This document shows, one piece after another, positions 32,870 to 42,720 of a DNA stretch of 64,000 nt. Positions within the stretch are counted from its first letter, which is position 1. Every line of letters begins with the position of its first letter. Below the pieces are notes generated by a model. The model made no database searches and was not told where the DNA came from. It saw nothing but the letters and a program-made list of their open reading frames with translations. This DNA is from Actinomyces sp. oral taxon 170 str. F0386 (GTDB taxonomy: Bacteria > Actinomycetota > Actinomycetes > Actinomycetales > Actinomycetaceae): NCBI RefSeq assembly GCF_000195595.1, contig NZ_GL882538.1:141267-205266 (forward strand), written 5' to 3'. The position numbers and the translations under genes were made by a program.

Positions 32870-33742
32870 TCAGGCGAAGACGACGGTGCGGTGCCCGTTG
32901 AGCAGTACCCGGTGCTCGGTGTGCCAGCGCACCGCCTGCGCCAGAACCCGGCGTTCGACGTCCTGCCCCTTGGCCTGCAGCGTGGCCACCGGGTCCTCGT
33001 GGCCGGCCCGCGTCACGTCCTGCTCGATGATCGGGCCCTCATCGAGGTCCGCCGTCACGTAGTGTGCCGTCGCCCCAATGAGCTTGACCCCGCGCTCGTG
33101 CGCCTGGGCGTAAGGACGCGCCCCCTTGAAGGACGGCAGGAACGAGTGGTGGATGTTGATGACACCCCCGTGCAGCCGCTCGCACAGGGTGGGGGAGAGG
33201 ATCTGCATGTAGCGGGCCAGTACCACCAGCTCGACGTCGAGGGAGTCCACCAGCCCCAGCAGCTCGGCCTCGGCGGCCTCCTTGGTGTCCTTGGTGACCG
33301 CGATGTGGTGGAAGGGCACCCCGTAGAACTCGGCGACGTCCCGCAGCGTCTCATGGTTGCCCACTACGCCGACGACGTCGACCGGCAGCCCCTGGCTGCG
33401 GGCCCGGAAGAGCAGATCGGTCAGGCAGTGCCCCTCCTTGGAGACCATGATGAGGGTGCGCATGGCCCGCCCCACCTCATCAAGGCTCCACTCCATCTCG
33501 TACTCGCCGGCCAGCTCGGCCAGGTCCTTCTCCAGCTCCACGCGCGGCACGGTGGTGAGCACCTGGACCCGCATGAAGAACAGGCCGGTGGAGGAGTCCC
33601 CGAACTGCTTGGACTCGGTGATGTTCCCACCGCGGCGCGCCAGCGTGCCGGTGACCGCATGGACGATGCCCGGACGGTCGGGGCAGGACAGGGACAGGAC
33701 CAGGTGGGCCGCGGAGTCGGATTGCACCGTGGAATGAGCCAT
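32870..33742 (-). CDS. purU: Formyltetrahydrofolate deformylase
   Basis: 290 residues from ATG 33740-33742. An N-terminal ACT domain (LVLSLSCPDRPGIVHAVTGTL) is followed by the formyltransferase-like catalytic domain: VVGNHETLRDVAEFYGVPFHHI, NIHHSFLPSFKGARPY with the catalytic His and the HxSxLPxxxG motif, and GATAHYVTADLDEGPIIEQD with the catalytic Asp. It hydrolyses 10-formyl-THF to formate and THF, balancing one-carbon pools. It starts only 4 bases past the urea transporter stop, so it looks like the last gene of the urease transcript. Its 3' third is duplicated at 27400-27660. Confidence 0.94.
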   Translation of the reverse strand: MAHSTVQSDSAAHLVLSLSCPDRPGIVHAVTGTLARRGGNITESKQFGDSSTGLFFMRVQVLTTVPRVELEKDLAELAGEYEMEWSLDEVGRAMRTLIMVSKEGHCLTDLLFRARSQGLPVDVVGVVGNHETLRDVAEFYGVPFHHIAVTKDTKEAAEAELLGLVDSLDVELVVLARYMQILSPTLCERLHGGVINIHHSFLPSFKGARPYAQAHERGVKLIGATAHYVTADLDEGPIIEQDVTRAGHEDPVATLQAKGQDVERRVLAQAVRWHTEHRVLLNGHRTVVFA

Positions 33743-33746
33743 GGCC

Positions 33747-34682
33747 TCAGCCTAGTCGGCGCTCGCGCCACTTGACGACGGCGAGCACCAGCCAGGTGGT
33801 CACGATGAACGGCCAGGTGTAGGTCGGCACCGGGATCGCCGTGAAAACCCGGTCCACGATGACGGTCAGCACCGATCCCACCACCGCCAGCACCCAGGCC
33901 CGCCTCCCGGGAGGCAGGAGGACGACGCCGATCGCGATCGCCGTCAGGCACGGCGAGTACCCGCCCAGACCGTGCGCCGCCTGGCCGGCGGGAATGAGTG
34001 CCAGCGTTGCTGCCGTTCCGACGACGCTGCCCAGCAGCGCTGCCGTTCCTACTCTCCAACCGGCGATGAACAGCCCGGCCAGGATCAGCGCACCGCCGAC
34101 CCAGGAGTCGACGAGCACCACCTGGGACTCTCCCGTCAGCACCGCCTCCGGGACCAGCCACGCCGTCGACCCACTGACCGGCGCCGGATCCGGCACCATC
34201 GGCGCGTCGATCGCCCTGAGCAGAGCGGTCAGCAGGCCGGAGACGATGCAGAAGGGAGCCGTGAGCGCTGGGAGCCCAGCCGGCGCGAGGGCGCGCTCCA
34301 GAGCACGGTGGACCGCGGGGCACGCCGCCGCCCCGACCACGGTGACCAGCGTCGCCGGCCAGAAGACGCCCATAGCGGCCCAGGCCGCCGCTCCCACCAG
34401 CGCCCCGTTGTAGCCCTGGAGCCCGTCGGCGACTCGCAGATCCAGCAGCCGGCCCGCCACCGTCGACACCGTCGTCCCGAGGACCACTTGGAGGGCCATG
34501 AGCGGTGAGTAGACGGCGATGCCGGCCACGATGAGCAGTCCGGTGAGAGCATGGGGCTGGAGGAAGATCTGTCCCACCCCGCGCCCGAGCGCGTTCACGC
34601 CGGATGAGACGATCGATGGGACGGCCGCGGTGCCCGGTCCGGGAGCCGGGTGGTGGGACTGATGAACAGATGACTCAGGCAC
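33747..34682 (-). CDS. Urea transporter (UT family)
   Basis: 311 residues from GTG 34682-34680, 7 bases after GGAG. About ten hydrophobic helices are visible. The UT repeat signatures are there: LGRGVGQIFLQPHALTGLLIVAGI in the first half with LQGYNGALVGAAAW, and GLFIAGWRVGTAALLGSVVG with GLGGYSPCLTAIAIG in the second. These proteins are channel-like urea facilitators. Placement between ureD and purU in the urease operon supports urea uptake as its job. Confidence 0.87.
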   Translation of the reverse strand: MPESSVHQSHHPAPGPGTAAVPSIVSSGVNALGRGVGQIFLQPHALTGLLIVAGIAVYSPLMALQVVLGTTVSTVAGRLLDLRVADGLQGYNGALVGAAAWAAMGVFWPATLVTVVGAAACPAVHRALERALAPAGLPALTAPFCIVSGLLTALLRAIDAPMVPDPAPVSGSTAWLVPEAVLTGESQVVLVDSWVGGALILAGLFIAGWRVGTAALLGSVVGTAATLALIPAGQAAHGLGGYSPCLTAIAIGVVLLPPGRRAWVLAVVGSVLTVIVDRVFTAIPVPTYTWPFIVTTWLVLAVVKWRERRLG

Positions 34683-34742
34683 GAGGGACTCCGATCGATA
34701 GAAGTTCGGGAGGCGCCCGCTGCCGAGGCGAGCGGGCCGTTG

Positions 34743-35558
34743 CTAGTACTTGCGCAGGTGGAGTCTCGATGCGCCGAACCACCGACGGCGCAGGAGCTCA
34801 CTGATGTCGAGCATGAGAGCGGTGAGACGGGTCGTGTCGTCGGCCAGCGCCCGGGCGATGAGTCCGGGGCCCGGCACCCGCGTCACTGCGCCGCGCACGC
34901 CGTCGACCTCGAGGAGCTCGCCGACCTCGGCGACGAGCGCGGCGCTGACCCGGGCGTCGAGCGCCGTGAAGGAGGCCAGGTGGCTGTACCCCTCCAGGGC
35001 TCCCAGACTTGTCATCCCAGACTCACCGGGGACCAAGCGCAGGTTGTCGACGACGGCGCACCTGCCGCCAACACGGATATCGGTGCGCATCCGCACGGAG
35101 TCGTACCCGAAGACCGCGCCGTCCGGTGCCCAACCTGGGGTGAGGACCTCCAGGGACATGAAGGTCGCCGTCGGGTCCATCTCAACAAGGGTGGTCTGCC
35201 GGTAGGAGGACTCCCGGTAGGCGATGACCTGGTCCGGCACCAGCTCGAGCACGGCCCCAGGCCCCAGGACCGCTCGGGTGTCCTGGTGGACCGGGCAGGT
35301 GGGGGTGCGGTAGATCTTCGTGGCCGCCTGGGTCGTCAGCACTGCGGAGGCCCCCTGAAGGACCTCGACCTCGGTGAGGTAGGAGTCGCCGTCCAGGTAC
35401 CCGCCTCCGGGATTGACCACGTAGTAGGTCACCTGCCCGGTCTCATCGAGGTACAGTTGGCGGAACACCCTCAGCGCTCCCCGGTGGTACTGGTCGACGG
35501 CGATACTCCGGTCCCCGCCTCGGGCGATCCGCAGGTGCAGCTTGCCAGTAGTGCTCAC
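34743..35558 (-). CDS. ureD: Urease accessory protein UreD
   Basis: 271 residues from GTG 35558-35556, overlapping the ureG stop by four bases. UreD traits: [31 protein letters not shown] and [13 protein letters not shown], then a [22 protein letters not shown] stretch. It forms the UreDFG complex that delivers nickel to apo-urease. It is last of the ure genes; 60 bases separate it from the urea transporter. Confidence 0.92.
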
Positions 35559-36235
35559 GACTCCAGGTCCGTCATGAGCACGTCGTGGCGGATCCACTCG
35601 ATGACCTGCTCCAGGCCCTCGTCGGTTTTGAGATTGGTGAAGCAGAAGGGCTTGTCTCCCCGGAACACCTTGGAGTCGGCCTCCATGACCGCCAGATCGG
35701 CGCCGACGTGAGGGGCCAGGTCCGTCTTGTTGATGACGAACAGGTCGGACTTGATCATTCCCTGACCGGCCTTGCGGGGGATCTTCTCGCCCTGGGCCAC
35801 GTCGATGACGTAGATGGAGAAGTCGACGAGCTCGGGGGAGAAGGTGGCCGAGAGGTTGTCGCCTCCCGACTCCACGAACACCACCTCCAGGTCGGGGTGG
35901 CGCTCCACCAGCTCGGCGATCGCCGCCTCGTTCATGGAGGTGTCCTCACGGATGGCGGTGTGTGGGCAGCCCCCGGTCTCCAGCCCGATGATGCGGTCCA
36001 CCGGCAGGATTCCCTGAGCGGCGAGGATCTTGGCGTCCTCGATCGTGTAGATGTCGTTGGTGACGGCGGCCATGGAGATCTCCCGGCTCATGGCCCGGGT
36101 GATGCGCTCGATGAGCTGGGTCTTGCCCGCCCCCACCGGGCCACCCACCCCGATACGGACCGGACCGGGATGCTGCGGGCCGGCGGCCTGCTCTCCGGGT
36201 GTATCAGGGAGGACCAGGCTGGTTGCTGATGTCAT
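35555..36235 (-). CDS. ureG: Urease accessory GTPase UreG
   Basis: 226 residues from ATG 36233-36235, after AGGAG. It is a SIMIBI GTPase: P-loop [14 protein letters not shown], metal-binding GGCPHT (Cys-Pro-His), [17 protein letters not shown], and [12 protein letters not shown] for guanine recognition. It couples GTP hydrolysis to nickel insertion into urease, together with UreF and UreD. Confidence 0.95.
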
Positions 36236-36264
36236 GAGGTTCTCCTCAGTGGTTCTTTAGCTCT

Positions 36265-37002
36265 TTAGGACATGAACATGCGGGCGCGCTGGCGCTCGTG
36301 CCGCATCTGGCTGATCTCGATCCCGGGCGCGGCCGACCCCAGGTCCATCTCGTCAAGAGTCCCGATCCTCCTGAGCGCGGCGCAGACGTCGTCGCGCACC
36401 GAGGCGATGGCGCGCTGACCGGCGTCCTGCCCGAGGGGGATGGCTCGTACGGCGTTCTGCGTCAGCGAGATGACGCTGGACTGGAGGTACGCCGCCGCGG
36501 CCGCCGCCGGCGGTGCCGTGAGCACGTAGCCGGCGATCGCCAGCACGATGGCGGGGTGGGCGCAGCACACCTCCGCGTCCACGAGCGCCGCGTAACGGCT
36601 CAGCAGCCCGTCGCCGTCGCTCAGTGCCAGGCGGGCGACGGCGAGCAGTCGCCGCCCCATCGTGATCCCGGCCCGGCGCACCTGGAGCGGCACCGCCTGC
36701 GCCACGAGGAGCTCATCGAGATGCGCGATCGCCTCCCAGTCGTCCACCGCCACCGCCTCGAAGGCCAGCCGCAGCCCCAGTCCCTCGGAGAAGGTCAGCT
36801 GGGTGGATACGAGCGCGCGCAGCCAGGTCACGAAGGAGGCTTCGTCGTTGACGACGCCGTCGCAGATGTAGGTCTCCAGCCCGAAGGAGTGCGAGAAGGC
36901 ACCCGTGGGCAGTGCGGAGTCACACAGCTGGGCCAGCGGCAGCTGCCAGCGCGCAGGCTCGCCCCACTCCGGGGCACGAGGGTCAGTGAGTATGCTCGGC
37001 AT
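36265..37002 (-). CDS. ureF: Urease accessory protein UreF
   Basis: 245 residues from ATG 37000-37002, starting inside the last 20 bases of ureE. UreF signatures: LPLAQLCDSALPTGAFSHSFGLETYI near the N-terminus and SVISLTQNAVRAIPLGQDAGQRAI near the C-terminus. It is all-helical and bridges UreG and UreD in nickel delivery. The start inside ureE implies translational coupling. Confidence 0.92.
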   Translation of the reverse strand: MPSILTDPRAPEWGEPARWQLPLAQLCDSALPTGAFSHSFGLETYICDGVVNDEASFVTWLRALVSTQLTFSEGLGLRLAFEAVAVDDWEAIAHLDELLVAQAVPLQVRRAGITMGRRLLAVARLALSDGDGLLSRYAALVDAEVCCAHPAIVLAIAGYVLTAPPAAAAAAYLQSSVISLTQNAVRAIPLGQDAGQRAIASVRDDVCAALRRIGTLDEMDLGSAAPGIEISQMRHERQRARMFMS

Positions 37003-37474
37003 AACGGAAGGGGACGGGCATGGATCGCTCCATCCGCTCATGTCGCACCCCCAGGTGCTCCAGGTAGTGCTCGGCGGTGTGGTCGTACTGGATGACCATG
37101 ACGCCGTCATGCCCCTCAAGTCCCGGGAAGGGCTCATCCGGGCCGAAGAACTGGGCCGGCAGGTGCCGGTTGCCCAGGTTGTGGGCGACGACCCCCATCT
37201 CGCGCACCGTGGCGGGCGCGATGACCAGGACGTCGGTGGGCTCCAGGCGCACGACGACGATTCCCCGCTCGTCGCGAAGCAGAATGTCTCCCTCTCGCAG
37301 GTCCGGTGCTCCCGTTGCGAGCCGGATGCCGAGCTCGGTGCCGTGGTCCGAGCGCACTCGCTGAATGCGTTTAGTGAGATCGGCCAGAGGGAGGACCACG
37401 CTCTCAACGTGCACGTCCTCAAGGTCCTCGGGGGACAGGTCATGGATATTGCCTGAGATGGACTCGATGATCAT
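36983..37474 (-). CDS. ureE: Urease accessory protein UreE
   Basis: 163 residues from ATG 37472-37474. The N-terminal peptide-binding half (LPLADLTKRIQRVRSDHGTELGIRLA) and the C-terminal metal domain (VAHNLGNRHLPAQF with the conserved metal-binding His, then IQYDHTAEHYLEHLGV) are intact. Only a short HTH tail ends it, so there is no His-rich nickel store. It is the nickel metallochaperone passing Ni2+ to UreG. Confidence 0.92.
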   Translation of the reverse strand: MIIESISGNIHDLSPEDLEDVHVESVVLPLADLTKRIQRVRSDHGTELGIRLATGAPDLREGDILLRDERGIVVVRLEPTDVLVIAPATVREMGVVAHNLGNRHLPAQFFGPDEPFPGLEGHDGVMVIQYDHTAEHYLEHLGVRHERMERSMPVPFRYAEHTH

Positions 37475-37494
37475 GAAGGCTCCAGGATGAGGGA

Positions 37495-39207
37495 TCAGAA
37501 GAGGAAGTAGCGCTGGGCCATGGCCAGGACCTGAGCGGGCTCGCAGGTGACCTTCTCGCCGTCGGCCGTGACCTCATAGGTCTCGGGATCGACAGTGAGT
37601 GCCGGAGTGGCGTCGTTGAAGGCCATGTCCGCCTTCGTCAGCCGCCTGACTCCACGGGCCGGGCAGACCTTCTTGCTCAGTCCCAGGCTCTGGGGCACTC
37701 CCGCATCGATGGCCGCCTGGGACATGAAGGTGATCGAGTTCGACGCCGGTGCCGCCCCGTGGCCGCCGAACATGGTGCGTATGAGCGTGGGCTCGGGAGT
37801 GGGGATCGAGGCGTTGGCGTCACCCATGACCGCGGAGGCGATCTGGCCCCCCTTGAGGATCAAAGACGGCTTGACCCCGAAGAAGGCGGGGTCCCACAGC
37901 ACCAGGTCGGCCCACTTGCCCACCTCCACGCTGCCCACGACCTCGGCGATCCCGTTGGTGCGGGCCGGGTTGATCGTGTACTTCGACACGTAGCGCCTGA
38001 TGCGCAGGTTGTCGCCGCCCTCCGGGTCCCCGGCGAGCCTGCCGCGCGCCTTCTTCATCTGGTCGGCCACTTGCCAGGTGCGGATGACGACCTCGCCGAC
38101 GCGCCCCATGGCCTGGGAGTCCGACGACGTCATCGAGAACACGCCCAGGTCGTGCAGCACATCCTCGGCCGCGATCGTCTCCGGACGGATGCGCGAGTCG
38201 GCGAAGGCGACGTCCTCCGGGATGGCGGGGTTGAGGTGGTGGCACACCATGAGCATGTCGAGGTGCTCCTCAGCGGTGTTGCGCGTGAAGGGCAGCGTCG
38301 GGTTGGTCGAGGACGGCAGGATGTTGGGGTCCTGCGCCAGGGTGATGATGTCCGGGGCGTGGCCGCCGCCGGCGCCCTCGGTGTGGAAGGTGTGGATGAC
38401 CCGTCCGCCGATCGCGCGGCGGGTGTCCTCAACGAAGCCGCACTCGTTGAGCGTGTCGGTGTGGATGGCCACCTGCACGTCGAACTCGTCGGCCACCTTG
38501 AGCGCCTCGTCGATGACGGCGTGCGTGGCTCCCCAGTCCTCATGGATCTTGAAGCCGACCGCGCCGGCGCGCAGCTGCTCGGCCAGAGGCTCTCGGGCCG
38601 AGGCGTGGCCCTTTCCCAGCAGGCCGATGTTCATGGGGAAGTCCTCGACGGCCTGGAGCATGCGAGCCAGGTTCCACGCCCCGGGAGTGATCGTGGTGGC
38701 GTTGGTGCCGTCGGCGGGTCCCGTCCCTCCTCCGATCATGGTGGTCACACCCGAGGCCAGGGCAGTGGCGACCTGAGCGGGGGAGATGAAGTGAATGTGG
38801 GAGTCGATGCCTCCGGCCGTCAGGATGCGGTGCTCGCCGGCGATCACCTCCGTGGAGGCGCCGATGACGATGTCGACGTCGTCCATGATGTCCGGGTTGC
38901 CCGCAGCGCCGATAGCGCTGATGACACCGTCCCGGATGGCGACGTCGGCCTTGTAGATGCCGGTGTGGTCGATGATGATCGCGTTGGTGATGACAGTGTC
39001 GGGGATGCCCTCGTCCCGCGTGCGCTGTCCGTTGTGGCCCATACCGTCGCGGATGACCTTGCCACCTCCGAAGACGGCCTCGTCACCATGGTGGGTCAGG
39101 TCCCGCTCGATCTGGGCGAAGAGGTCGGTGTCGGCCAGACGGACGGTGTCCCCGGTGGTGGGGCCGTACAGGGCGGCATGCTCCCGACGGCTGAGTTCCT
39201 TGCTCAT
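37495..39207 (-). CDS. ureC: Urease alpha subunit
   Basis: 570 residues from ATG 39205-39207 after AGGAGCAC. The nickel site is complete: GGIDSHIHF (His pair), the carbamylated Lys220 in [35 protein letters not shown], and the flap MVCHHLNP with the general acid His. It hydrolyses urea to ammonia and carbamate. Length and order (A, B, C as separate subunits) are those of typical bacterial ureases. Confidence 0.97.
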
Positions 39208-39224
39208 GATGTGCTCCTGTGCTC

Positions 39225-39536
39225 TCAGCCCTGGACGGGGCCGTTCGTCTCGCCTGCCAGTCCGAAGACCCTTCGCGCTCCCGCCAGCGCCACCAGGTGG
39301 ACTGGTCTGGAGTCGCCCGGCTCGAACCGAACCGCGGTTCCGGCCGGAATGTCGAGGCGGAAACCACGAGCGGCCCGCCGATCGAAGGACAGCGCGGAGT
39401 TGACCTCGGCGAAGTGGAAGTGCGAACCGACCTGAATGGGACGGTCCCCGGTGTTGAGGACGTCCAGACTGAGGGTGGGGCGCCCCTCGTTGATGGTGAT
39501 GGTGCCGCTCATGAGTCGGTACTCTCCCGGGATCAT
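39225..39536 (-). CDS. ureB: Urease beta subunit
   Basis: 103 residues from ATG 39534-39536, overlapping ureA by four bases. The family start [19 protein letters not shown] and the [19 protein letters not shown] and [18 protein letters not shown] blocks are all present. It is a structural subunit of the UreABC trimer. Confidence 0.96.
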
Positions 39537-39847
39537 GGCAGCCTCCTGCGAATCGGGTCGTGAACGGAGACAAGCTTGGTTCCGTCGGGGAAGGTTGCCT
39601 CCACCTGGACCGCGCGGATCATCTCGGGGACTCCCTCCATGACGTCGTCATAGGTCAGCAGGGTGGTGCCGTAGGCCATGAGATCCGTGACCGTGCGCCC
39701 TTCGCGGGCTCCTTCGAGGATCTCAGCGGTGATGTAGGCGACTGCCTCAGGGTGATTGAGCCGGATTCCCCTGTCCTTGCGTCTTCGTGCCAGGTCCGCG
39801 GCGACGACGATGAGTAGCTTCTCCTGCTCACGAGGGGTGAGGTGCAT
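39533..39847 (-). CDS. ureA: Urease gamma subunit
   Basis: 104 residues from ATG 39845-39847; the open frame continues upstream but the family begins [23 protein letters not shown]. Other signatures are [21 protein letters not shown] and the C-terminal [15 protein letters not shown]. It is the first gene of the urease operon. Confidence 0.95.
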
Positions 39848-39919
39848 CAGGGCTCTCCCAGAGACGGTTCGGAGCGGGCGCATAGGCGCGAGCTTGTCCG
39901 CGCACGACGGACGCTTATT

Positions 39920-39953
39920 AGGCAATGCCTTGTATGTTGCGGAAATATTTCCG
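39920..39953. promoter_or_regulatory. Two palindromes in the urease promoter region
   Basis: AGGCAATGCCT (39920-39930) and CGGAAATATTTCCG (39940-39953) are each perfect or near-perfect palindromes, 9 bases apart, 73-106 bases before ureA. The region is AT-richer than its surroundings. They are candidate operators for nitrogen, nickel or pH control; no known consensus was matched with confidence. Confidence 0.5.
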
Positions 39954-40017
39954 GCTGTTGAGCGGCAAGGTTCAGGGTGCTCCTGCCCTTATCAGTTTTC
40001 CGCGTCATTGCGGGATG

Positions 40018-40028
40018 AGAATGATTCT
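40018..40028. promoter_or_regulatory. Zur/Fur-like box upstream of urease
   Basis: AGAATGATTCT, the same 11-bp palindrome as at 41463-41473, within ATGAGAATGATTCTGG. It is 170 bases before ureA and lies beyond the rpmJ terminator, so the urease operon is the next gene it could control on the minus strand. Confidence 0.55.
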
Positions 40029-40079
40029 GGTTGACGTGCCATCAATCTTCGGCGACGGGGGTCGATACTGAGGAAAAGA

Positions 40080-40115
40080 AGGGCCGGGATGCGTGCTGAT
40101 GCGCATCCCGGCCCT
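40080..40115 (-). terminator. Terminator of the zinc-independent ribosomal operon
   Basis: AGGGCCGGGATGCG (40080-40093) pairs perfectly with 40102-40115 around an 8-base loop. On the minus strand the stem is followed by TTCTTTTCCTCA, a T-rich tract. It lies 20 bases past the rpmJ stop and is a classical intrinsic terminator. Confidence 0.88.
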
Positions 40116-40134
40116 GCATGGGTGGTACTGACCG

Positions 40135-40257
40135 TCAGCCCTGACGGGCCTTGAGGCGGGGGTTCTTCTTGTTGATGACGTAGGTGTGACCGCGGCGTCG
40201 GACCACCTTGGACCCCGGCTGCTTGGCCAGGGACCGGATCGAGGCACGAACCTTCAT
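40135..40257 (-). CDS. rpmJ: Ribosomal protein bL36, zinc-free form
   Basis: 40 residues from ATG 40255-40257 after AAAGGAACC. The sequence ([20 protein letters not shown]... then a [11 protein letters not shown] tail) contains no Cys, so it is the C-minus paralogue of L36 that replaces the zinc-binding form when zinc is scarce. It is the last gene before the operon terminator. Confidence 0.95.
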
Positions 40258-40337
40258 GTCGGTTCCTTTCCTTCTTCGTGTACAGCAATGACGGTGAGAG
40301 ATCGAAGGGGAGGGGCGATGACGCCCCGCCTGCCCGA

Positions 40338-40589
40338 CTAGCGTTTGCGCTTGCCGTAGCGGCGCTCGAACTTCTCCACCCGGCCGGCCGTGTCCAGGAT
40401 CTTGCCCTGGCCGGTCCAGAACGGGTGCGAGGCGCTGGAGACCTCGACGTCGTAGACCGGATAGGTGTTGCCGTCCTCCCACTCGATGGTCTCCGACGAC
40501 GTCAGGGTCGAACGGGTCAGGAAGGCGAAGTCGGCGGACTTGTCGCGAAAGACGATGGGCTGATAGCTGGGGTGGATCCCAGGGCGCAT
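40338..40589 (-). CDS. rpmE2: Ribosomal protein bL31 type B (zinc-free)
   Basis: 83 residues from ATG 40587-40589 after AAGGAG. It begins [18 protein letters not shown] and ends [26 protein letters not shown], the type B form without the CxxC zinc ribbon. It substitutes for zinc-binding L31. Gaps of 140 and 80 bases separate it from rpsN and rpmJ. Confidence 0.95.
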
Positions 40590-40729
40590 ACGAGCTCCTT
40601 GGATGGGGGTGAATGTGAGAACTGACGTGGTGAACGAGTGCCGGCAGCGGTGCTGCGGGGGCGATGACTACGGGGCGCCGCGAGCCCCGGCGGGCACAGG
40701 CTCACAGGCCGTGCCCCGCTCGCGTCCGT

Positions 40730-41035
40730 CTACCAGGAGGACTTGACGATGCCCGGCAGCTCGCCGCGCAGCGCCATCTCGCGGAAACGCACCCGGGAGG
40801 TCCCGGTGACGCGCAGGTGCCCGCGCGGGCGGCCGTCCACCGCGTCGCGCCGACGCAGGCGAGTGGGGGAGGCGTCGCGCGGCAGTGCGTGCAACGCCGT
40901 CATCGCCTCATCGCGCTTCTCCTGGCTCAGGTGAGGGTTGACCGAGGCCCGCTTGAGCTCGGCGCGGCGCTCGGCATAACGCCCCACCACCTGCTGGCGG
41001 CGCAGCTCGGCGGTGATCTTGGACTTCTTGGCCAT
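40730..41035 (-). CDS. rpsN: Ribosomal protein uS14, zinc-independent long form
   Basis: 101 residues from ATG 41033-41035, sharing one base with the rpmG stop. [28 protein letters not shown] and [28 protein letters not shown] are the long-form S14 blocks; there are no Cys residues, so no zinc ribbon. Confidence 0.95.
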
Positions 41036-41211
41036 CAGCGCGACTCCTTGTACTCCACGTGCCGGCGCACCACCGGGTCGAACTTGCGCAGCACCAGCCG
41101 GTCGGGGGTGTTGCGGCGGTTCTTGCGGGTCACGTAGGTGTGGCCCGTGCCCGCGGTGGAGACCATCTTGATGATCGGCCGCAGGTCCTTTCCTCCCTTG
41201 GCTCCGCTCAT
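41035..41211 (-). CDS. rpmG: Ribosomal protein bL33, zinc-free form
   Basis: 58 residues from ATG 41209-41211, overlapping rpmB by three bases of ATGA. It has the L33 core [37 protein letters not shown] (quoted in part, positions 11-47) and no Cys, hence the C-minus paralogue. Confidence 0.93.
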
Positions 41212-41447
41212 GACAGCTTCTCCCCCCGAGCGAGCATCTGAGCCACGACGACGTCGATGCCCAGCTTGTCGATCGTGCGGATGCCCTTGGCGGACACCGT
41301 CAGGCGCACGGTGCGCCCCAGCGACGGCACCCAGTAGCGCTTGCGCTGCAGGTTGGGGTTCCAACGCCGGGGCGTGCGCTTGTGCGAGTGGGAGACGGAC
41401 CGGCCGAAGACCGGCCGGGTTCCCGTGACTTGGCAGTAGGTGGTCAT
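41208..41447 (-). CDS. rpmB: Ribosomal protein bL28, C-minus paralogue
   Basis: 79 residues from ATG 41445-41447. [22 protein letters not shown] and [22 protein letters not shown] identify L28. Only one Cys is present, not the CxxC pairs of zinc-binding L28. It is the first gene of the operon, with the shared Zur-like box about 16 bases upstream of its start. Confidence 0.93.
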
Positions 41448-41460
41448 GACGAGCATGATA

Positions 41461-41475
41461 TAAGAATGATTCTCA
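41461..41475. promoter_or_regulatory. Zur-like box between rpmB and the COG0523 gene
   Basis: TAAGAATGATTCTCA contains the palindrome AGAATGATTCT (41463-41473), with a further T...A outer pair. Actinobacterial Zur sites have the form TGA-rich AATGATTTTCA. It sits between two divergent genes whose families belong to Zur regulons elsewhere, so it most likely silences both when zinc is plentiful. Confidence 0.75.
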
Positions 41476-41502
41476 GTTTCGTCAACTCTGCTGGAGGACA
41501 TC

Positions 41503-42720
41503 GTGACGGACTACTCCGCTGACCTCTTCGACAACTCCGCCGACATCCCCGGCCCCCCGGCCGGCAGCCGGCACGCCCTGGCCGTCGTCGGCGCTGTCGA
41601 CCCCGCGCTGCTGGATCTGGTCGACCTCTCCCTGGCCGGCCAGGACGCCGTCGTCATCCGCGCTGGCCTCCACTTCGGCGCCGACGACGAGGCCGAGAGC
41701 AGTGAAGCCGGTGATGCGGGTGATGACGACCTGGTCCGGCTCGTCAGCCACAGCTCGGCCGACGGCTTCGATGACGACCCGGTGCGCCTCGATGTCCCCA
41801 TGCCCTTCGCCTGCCCCACCTGCTCCCTGCGTGAGGTCCTGGTCGCCGTCGCCGAGGACCGCGCAGCCCAGGATCCGGGTGGCACCACCGTCATCCTCCT
41901 GCCGGCGGCCATCGAGCTCGCCCATCTCCTGCCCCGCCTGGCCGAGGACCTCGCCGGAACCGGTGTGAGGCTGGCCGGAGCCGCCCACGTCCTGGACGCC
42001 ACCACCGCCGTGGACGAGCTCCTCGAGCACCGCTTGCTGGCCGCCTTCCCCGGCGACTGCCGCTGCACGGGCGCCGTCCACCTGGCCAACCTCGGATACG
42101 CCGACGTCGTCCTGGCCCTCGGTCGCGACGAGGACCCCGCCGGGGCCGACCTCATCGAGCACCTGCGCCCCCATGACGCCCTCCTGCTCCCGGGGCTCGA
42201 CGCACCCCTCCTGGAGACCCTGACCGCCCTCACCCACGACGCCTCCTCCTCCCTGAGCCGTATCCATCCCGCTACCACCAGCGCCTGGGGCGGTCCCGAC
42301 GACCACGGCGTGTGGACCCTGGACCTCAGCGCCACCCTGCCCTTCCACCCCGGGCGTCTGCGCGCCCTGGTCGTTGAGCTCGCCGGTCAGGGGCTGTGTG
42401 CTCGCGGCTGCTTCTGGCTGCCCAGCCGCCCTGGTCGGGTCTGTACCTGGGAGGTAGCCGGAGGCGCCGTGAGCGTCGGTGACGCCGGAACCTGGGGCGA
42501 GGTTCCATCCGCTGCGTCTGGTGTCGGCGAGGACGCCGCCGGCGAGCCCCGCTGCCACCTCGTGGTCACCGGTATCGGTGATACGGACATGCGCGAGCAG
42601 GTGCGTCGCGCCTTCGCCCGGATCCTCCTGCGCCCCGAGGAGATGTCTCAGGCCCTGGCCTGGATCGGCGCCGACGACGGCCTGGGCGACTGGTTCGGGC
42701 AGGAGGTCCAGGAGGACTGA
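41503..42720 (+). CDS. COG0523/CobW-like protein lacking the P-loop (Mrf-like)
   Basis: 405 residues from GTG 41503 after GGAGG. The N-terminus aligns with COG0523 metallochaperone GTPases, but the P-loop position reads [14 protein letters not shown] with no GKT, so GTP use is unlikely. A CxxC-type motif follows as [12 protein letters not shown], and the CobW C-terminal domain is present ([15 protein letters not shown]... [11 protein letters not shown]). Mycobacterial Mrf, encoded with C-minus ribosomal genes and needed for zinc-starvation ribosome hibernation, has this kind of layout. Divergence from rpmB across one Zur-like box supports the same role here; that is inference. Confidence 0.75.

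Follow-up and report, generated by a model that had tools for sequence, protein, structure and literature searches.

The Zur box of Streptomyces coelicolor has been given as the 7-1-7 sequence TGAAAATGATTTTCA and as a 21-bp palindrome of the 10-1-10 type (excerpt of PMC2823685). In the same species, Zur activates zitB from a box located upstream of the -35 element (excerpt of PMC5472717). Urease is not among the Zur regulon members described in the excerpts of these two papers. In S. coelicolor, ureA is reported to be under the control of GlnR (excerpt of PMC10704036). The expression of Actinomyces urease is the subject of a study cited in PMC5960132 (excerpt). Among the matches listed, which comprise titles and the beginnings of abstracts, no report deals with zinc control of Actinomyces urease, and the accessible text of PMC4888889 contains no match for Actinomyces.

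The window, i.e., the whole 64-kb stretch of DNA analyzed here, contains the sequence AGAATGATTCT exactly at two sites only, 40018-40028 and 41463-41473, which confirms the pair that the sequence-only reading had pointed out. Compared with the actinobacterial Zur box (excerpt of PMC2823685), the box at 40018 shares the symmetric AATGATT-type core and the length, and the genome resembles actinobacterial Zur systems in having a znuACB-zur-like cluster and a ribosomal operon preceded by such boxes. In contrast, the 40018 box is weak on one outer arm (its 15-mer, TGAGAATGATTCTGG, is identical to the bL28 box of genome G031), is not conserved, and is located in front of urease. It lies upstream of the probable promoter rather than over it, as the zitB box does with respect to its own promoter; however, 8 nt separate the zitB box from the -35 element, whereas the 40018 box is approximately 66 bp from a conserved block and its putative target is no zinc exporter (excerpt of PMC5472717). 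The features of the region are collected in Table 1.

Table 1. Features of the window around the two Zur-type boxes and the urease genes
Feature	Position	Strand	Basis or remark
urea transporter	33747-34682	-	profile match (ureF likewise named)
purU	32870-33742	-	family match on the window's protein
ureB, urease beta subunit	39225-39536	-	NCBIfam, over cut-off
ureA, urease gamma subunit	39533-39847	-	NCBIfam, over cut-off
putative -10 hexamer of ureA	39915-39920	-	TAATAA (TATAAT-like), inferred from alignment
conserved GAAAT-n6-GCAAC element	39936-39951	-	alignment; GlnR-box-like by resemblance only
second Zur-type box	40013-40033		core 40018-40028; upstream of ureA; lineage-specific among those examined
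intrinsic terminator after bL36	40080-40115	-	14-bp stem; conserved
bL36 type B	40135-40257	-	NCBIfam NF002021, over cut-off
bL31 type B	40338-40589	-	NCBIfam NF002462, over cut-off
uS14	40730-41035	-	NCBIfam NF006477, over cut-off
bL33	41035-41211	-	NCBIfam, over cut-off
bL28	41208-41447	-	NCBIfam, over cut-off
predicted Zur operator	41458-41478		core AGAATGATTCT at 41463-41473; flanked by the bL28 operon (minus) and the MRF-like GTPase gene (plus)
MRF/COG0523-like GTPase	41503-42720	+	NCBIfam NF047431, 52 bits (cut-off 375 bits)

The Zur boxes of the genus and their regulator

A symmetric 21-bp matrix was derived from 36 distinct sequences with at most three mismatches in every row, taken as the best consensus match upstream of the 30 bL28 and 30 znuA loci listed from a search of 49 Actinomyces genomes, and excluding the two loci of the genome under study. 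The training sites score 16.9-32.6 bits, or 14.9-32.0 bits when each is left out in turn. As they were picked as the best match to the Zur consensus in fixed upstream windows, there is some circularity in the training set; independent support comes from the position of the bL28 box, which is nearly fixed. The 41463 box scores 30.3 bits and the znuA box of the same genome (TGAGAATGATTCGCA) 29.3 bits, values that are not independent of the training, because relatives with identical or near-identical boxes sit in the training set.

The bL28 box starts at -26 to -28 with three mismatches or fewer in all 30 bL28 loci among those listed (exactly three mismatches to the consensus in five of them), and 11 of the 30, including the locus analyzed here, have the 15-mer of the 41463 box unchanged. 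In this genome, the box ends 13 bp above the bL28 start. Its palindrome score is like those of the znuA and ribosomal-paralogue sites, and it is conserved before orthologous genes, so that the earlier expectation of a Zur site at this place is borne out. On sequence grounds, the zinc-limitation ribosomal operon bL28-bL33-uS14-bL31-bL36 has an ordinary Zur operator in the 41463 box, which probably serves the divergent GTPase gene as well. The box is common to this operon and the MRF/COG0523-like gene, whose family scores stay below cut-off and whose product has no Pfam match at an E-value of 0.001. From the anatomy of the locus and the known actinobacterial Zur regulons, we infer that Zur would occupy the 41463 site and repress the ribosomal operon when zinc is present, and that the operon would be transcribed when zinc is absent.

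The genome, which is 99.96% complete, encodes one Fur-family protein (PF01475 match). Its gene follows a set of lipoprotein, ATPase, and permease genes that, judging from their anatomy, look like znuA, znuC, and znuB. Ten NCBIfam families are listed for the protein, and it scores below the cut-off of every one of them; therefore, the name Zur rests on the gene neighborhood and the boxes. No second Fur-family gene that could be a Nur candidate was found in the genome with PF01475; with a single Fur-family protein, encoded beside the znuACB-like set, Nur is unavailable.

Further sites above 17 bits occur among the loci scanned with the matrix in this genome. One of 28.1 bits (C37:107912) precedes an ECF-type transporter (L215:910-4161, i.e., G000:C37:107909-111160) composed of a PF09819 membrane component and a double ATPase that is joined with a CbiQ-like domain in one fusion protein; by its box, the transporter is a candidate Zur-controlled metal importer. 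Tandem boxes of 20.3 and 18.1 bits on contig C70 precede a Nik/Opp-like ABC operon (L214:6182-11364, i.e., G000:C70:161681-166863) with two ATPases, a binding protein, and fused permeases, and the second box overlaps its probable GTG start. A site of at least 20 bits precedes this operon in 22 of the 23 loci scanned, the remaining one having 14.7 bits (24 loci were fetched and one was dropped, as the match began inside the gene); a score of about 21 bits is thus compatible with function. The scores of the operon to the NCBIfam nickel models are below cut-off, and orthologues of its binding protein (E < 1e-180) are present in 25 of the 49 genomes, including the urease-lacking G009, G010, G022, and G026. 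A nickel-import link to urease through this operon was rejected, as the operon does not track urease, and its presence in urease-lacking genomes makes it unusable as support; it is perhaps a zinc or metallophore importer. A site of 19.2 bits is located inside a predicted coding frame (G000:C69; L216:2068-2088), which indicates that such scores also arise away from promoters, and another of 17.4 bits lies near C1:8729.

The box at 40018 and the urease promoter region

The 40018 site scores 21.1 bits, which lies within the training range and within the leave-one-out range of accepted Zur sites (4 of the 36 leave-one-out training scores are lower). The two boxes are the highest-scoring matrix sites of the window, the third reaching 11.2 bits. 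Sites of at least 21.1 bits are expected by chance at 0.425 per Mb in an i.i.d. model with the composition of the ureA intergenic region (120 Mb simulated), which gives 1.2e-4 expected sites in the 288 bp of that region; none appeared in 60 Mb generated with an order-2 model of the window. The count of AGAATGATTCT with up to two mismatches, which gives five rows in the window (40018 and 41463 on both strands, and 53821), is uninformative alone, since the shuffled windows have a mean of 3.29 and 28 out of 100 reach five. With an exact core and this score, the description of the 40018 box as Zur-like holds. Judged by the matrix, the site is probably Zur-competent, and Zur is likely to be able to bind it in vitro.

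The genes of the minus strand are arranged as bL28-bL33-uS14-bL31B-bL36B (41447 to 40135), the terminator, ureA and the other genes of the urease cluster (including some that we take to be ureC, ureE, ureG, and ureD), the urea transporter, and purU. The terminator had been proposed to isolate the 40018 box from the ribosomal operon, and the stem proved both real and conserved: its fold has -31.5 kcal/mol (z -7.4; none of 200 shuffles is as good), and it is kept in each of the seven urease-bearing species that were aligned, where a single pair differs on both of its sides. In the alignment (seven species, six distinct rows), 97.6% of the cells pair, a value reached by 25 of 500 shuffles; the covariation is weak support, since a double-sided pair change is matched by 287 of 500 shuffles. 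The conserved terminator separates the Zur-controlled ribosomal operon from the urease genes in the seven species. On the minus strand, bL36 ends at 40135 and the start of ureA lies at 39847, so that the first gene to follow 40018 on that strand is ureA. To this extent, the designation of ureA as the target stands, but its regulation from the box is unsupported by conservation.

In five urease-lacking sister species, DNA resembling purU (named from the window's protein only) directly follows bL36, without the box. This suggests that the urease cluster and urea transporter (33747-39847), placed between bL36 and purU, form an island that was gained or lost. Genome G006 (L006, L158) has two bL36 copies approximately 4 kb apart, one at the end of the Zur operon and the other, followed by a terminator stem, directly before ureA, which suggests a duplication or insertion at the bL36 junction.

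From the core at 40018, the distance is about 66 bp to the conserved block upstream of ureA and about 97 bp to the putative -10 hexamer; the ureA start follows about 165 bp after the end of the 21-mer. The urease elements common to the relatives span approximately 39851-39951. They include a GAAAT-n6-G[T/C]AAC element, readable in all seven aligned species, and the -10 hexamer, which reads TATAAG, TATATG, or TATAAA in the relatives. A promoter scan found no consensus promoter on the minus strand and no promoter-like pair at the 40018 site; the ureA promoter is for this reason derived from conservation. The element upstream of the probable -10 resembles the a- and b-sites of S. coelicolor GlnR (excerpt of PMC10704036), but differs from the consensus by one or two letters and has the b-a order, so that the likeness is one of resemblance only. 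The strict GlnR pattern gTnAC-n6-GaAAC has five matches in the genome, none of them beside a nitrogen gene recognizable by eye, and is uninformative in this respect.

Conservation and origin of the 40018 box

Eight of the 49 Actinomyces genomes, including the one under study, contain ureA, and in seven of the eight the upstream DNA can be aligned (G035 is the exception). At the box position, the genome analyzed here has CAGAATCATTCTC, while the relatives have CACAATCAGCCTC (G025, G069, and G002), CACAATCAGTCTC (G005), CATATTCAGTTCT (G006), and CGTAAGCACCACA (G060). The box is not found at the homologous place in any of the six other Actinomyces; the best scores in the 330 bp upstream of their ureA are 6.9, 5.2, 4.5, 2.3, 1.7, and -1.0 bits, and the corresponding region of G035 reaches -4.4 bits. 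Thus, the 40018 site is not conserved before orthologous genes in the six relatives or in G035. As a control, the same seven species all have both the bL28 box and the znuA box, with one mismatch each. Elsewhere, 1 of 80 ureA loci reached 21.1 bits (L124, Paenibacillus, 22.6 bits), a score that is invalid because the matrix was built for GC-rich Actinomyces; within the order to which Actinomyces belongs, ten ureA loci from nine genomes (L008-L017) all score below 0 bits.

In a tree of 1.8 kb of urease genes from the ureA start, the genome under study groups with G060, G025, and G069 (support 98/98), with G002, G005, and G006 outside; the forks among these outer rows have no support. Together with the letters common to G002, G005, G025, and G069, the tree makes it simplest to regard the state without the box as ancestral and the box as new. 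It would have arisen recently in this lineage, when some two to three substitutions changed an ancestral sequence of no particular note; the DNA in which it lies, from the terminator of bL36 to the promoter of ureA, is poorly conserved. Among the six relatives, 7 of 21 columns are invariant in the box, much as in the stretch just downstream (20 of 59), compared with 28 of 45 just upstream, 30 columns of 41 in the promoter block, and 49 columns of 62 in the 5' UTR. Inheritance of the box from the ancestral region downstream of the Zur operon was considered and is unsupported: in five urease-lacking sister species, the 400 bp that follow bL36 contain no box, and the best score there is -1.4 bits (-10.1 bits at the Zur operon of G006).

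Simulated random substitution at 10% divergence produced such a site in a region of about 290 bp in 1-42 of 200,000 trials, a number that varied with the relative from which the simulation started. Given this rarity, the gain may have been selected, with a real function in this species, which is represented by one strain. The rarity discourages dismissing the site, and the lack of conservation discourages assuming that it functions.

Possible roles of the 40018 box

The reading favored here, with moderate confidence, combines an ordinary Zur operator at 41463 with a young, Zur-competent site at 40018 where binding most likely affects urease little or not at all, and leaves Fur-family nickel sensing uninvolved. 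So small an effect is the likeliest outcome because some 66 bp lie between the box and the conserved block below it, and because the box is kept in none of the six relatives. Urease requires nickel, and the binding of a nickel-responsive Nur or another Fur paralogue at 40018 would fit that need; with the single Fur-family protein of a nearly complete genome encoded beside a znuACB-like set, and with a sequence at 40018 that fits the Zur boxes of the genus, such a regulator was rejected and the explanation is extremely improbable. Of the earlier proposal that urease may be under a zinc- or nickel-responsive Fur-family regulator, the nickel part is consequently contradicted by gene content, whereas zinc is possible but unsupported by conservation. 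Urease might also respond to zinc by read-through from the Zur-controlled ribosomal operon, as its cluster is directly downstream on the same strand. This route, which could coexist with the others, is very unlikely in view of the strong terminator kept in all seven species and the separate conserved promoter block.

Two further explanations concern the site itself. It is rather unlikely that urease has newly entered the Zur regulon, with Zur at 40018 repressing ureA or, from upstream, activating it according to zinc. The site is high-scoring and statistically unexpected in its intergenic region, ureA is the first gene downstream, the Nik-like boxes of similar score are conserved, and a discussion sentence in an excerpt of PMC11064496 states that Zur affects urease proteins of Yersinia pestis. 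These points are opposed by the absence of the box from all six relatives, by its distance from the conserved block and the ureA start, and by the promoter scan, which has no promoter-like pair at the site. Moreover, at bL28, znuA, and the Nik-like operon, the box is found over the start codon or no more than about 15 bp away from it (the znuA box ends at a start codon of our own choice). Position is only a moderate argument against function, since the ECF-transporter box is also at least 62 bp above its called start; this, together with the activation of zitB (excerpt of PMC5472717), means that an upstream location does not prove the absence of an effect. Binding, in turn, does not by itself prove regulation, as only 41 of 172 Zur-bound sites of S. 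coelicolor are truly intergenic (excerpt of PMC5472717). That 40018 is a pure chance palindrome without useful Zur binding is quite unlikely. The box is lineage-specific and occurs in a fast-changing stretch, it was picked from a scan and is subject to a look-elsewhere effect, a 19.2-bit site falls within a coding frame of the same genome, and a predicted adhA site of Corynebacterium glutamicum was unbound in vitro (excerpt of PMC2823685). Against chance stand the expectation of about 1e-4 such sites in the region, the symmetric core, and a score within the training range.

In the favored reading, the 40018 box exemplifies binding-site turnover cleanly, as an excellent motif match without phylogenetic support. 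The comparison of this species with A. oris, whose homologous 21-mer differs at three letters, is suited to reveal the effect of gaining a Zur site. The urease of oral Actinomyces raises the pH of plaque, and a zinc input, if real, would tie urease to zinc scarcity or to the zinc of toothpaste. It is unlikely that the species is now adding urease to the regulon of its zinc repressor through two to three recent substitutions beside ureA. If this were true, alkali production would be adjusted to zinc limitation on the tooth surface, by a link that is absent from the six urease-bearing sister species examined, which are 4-7% away in their urease genes.
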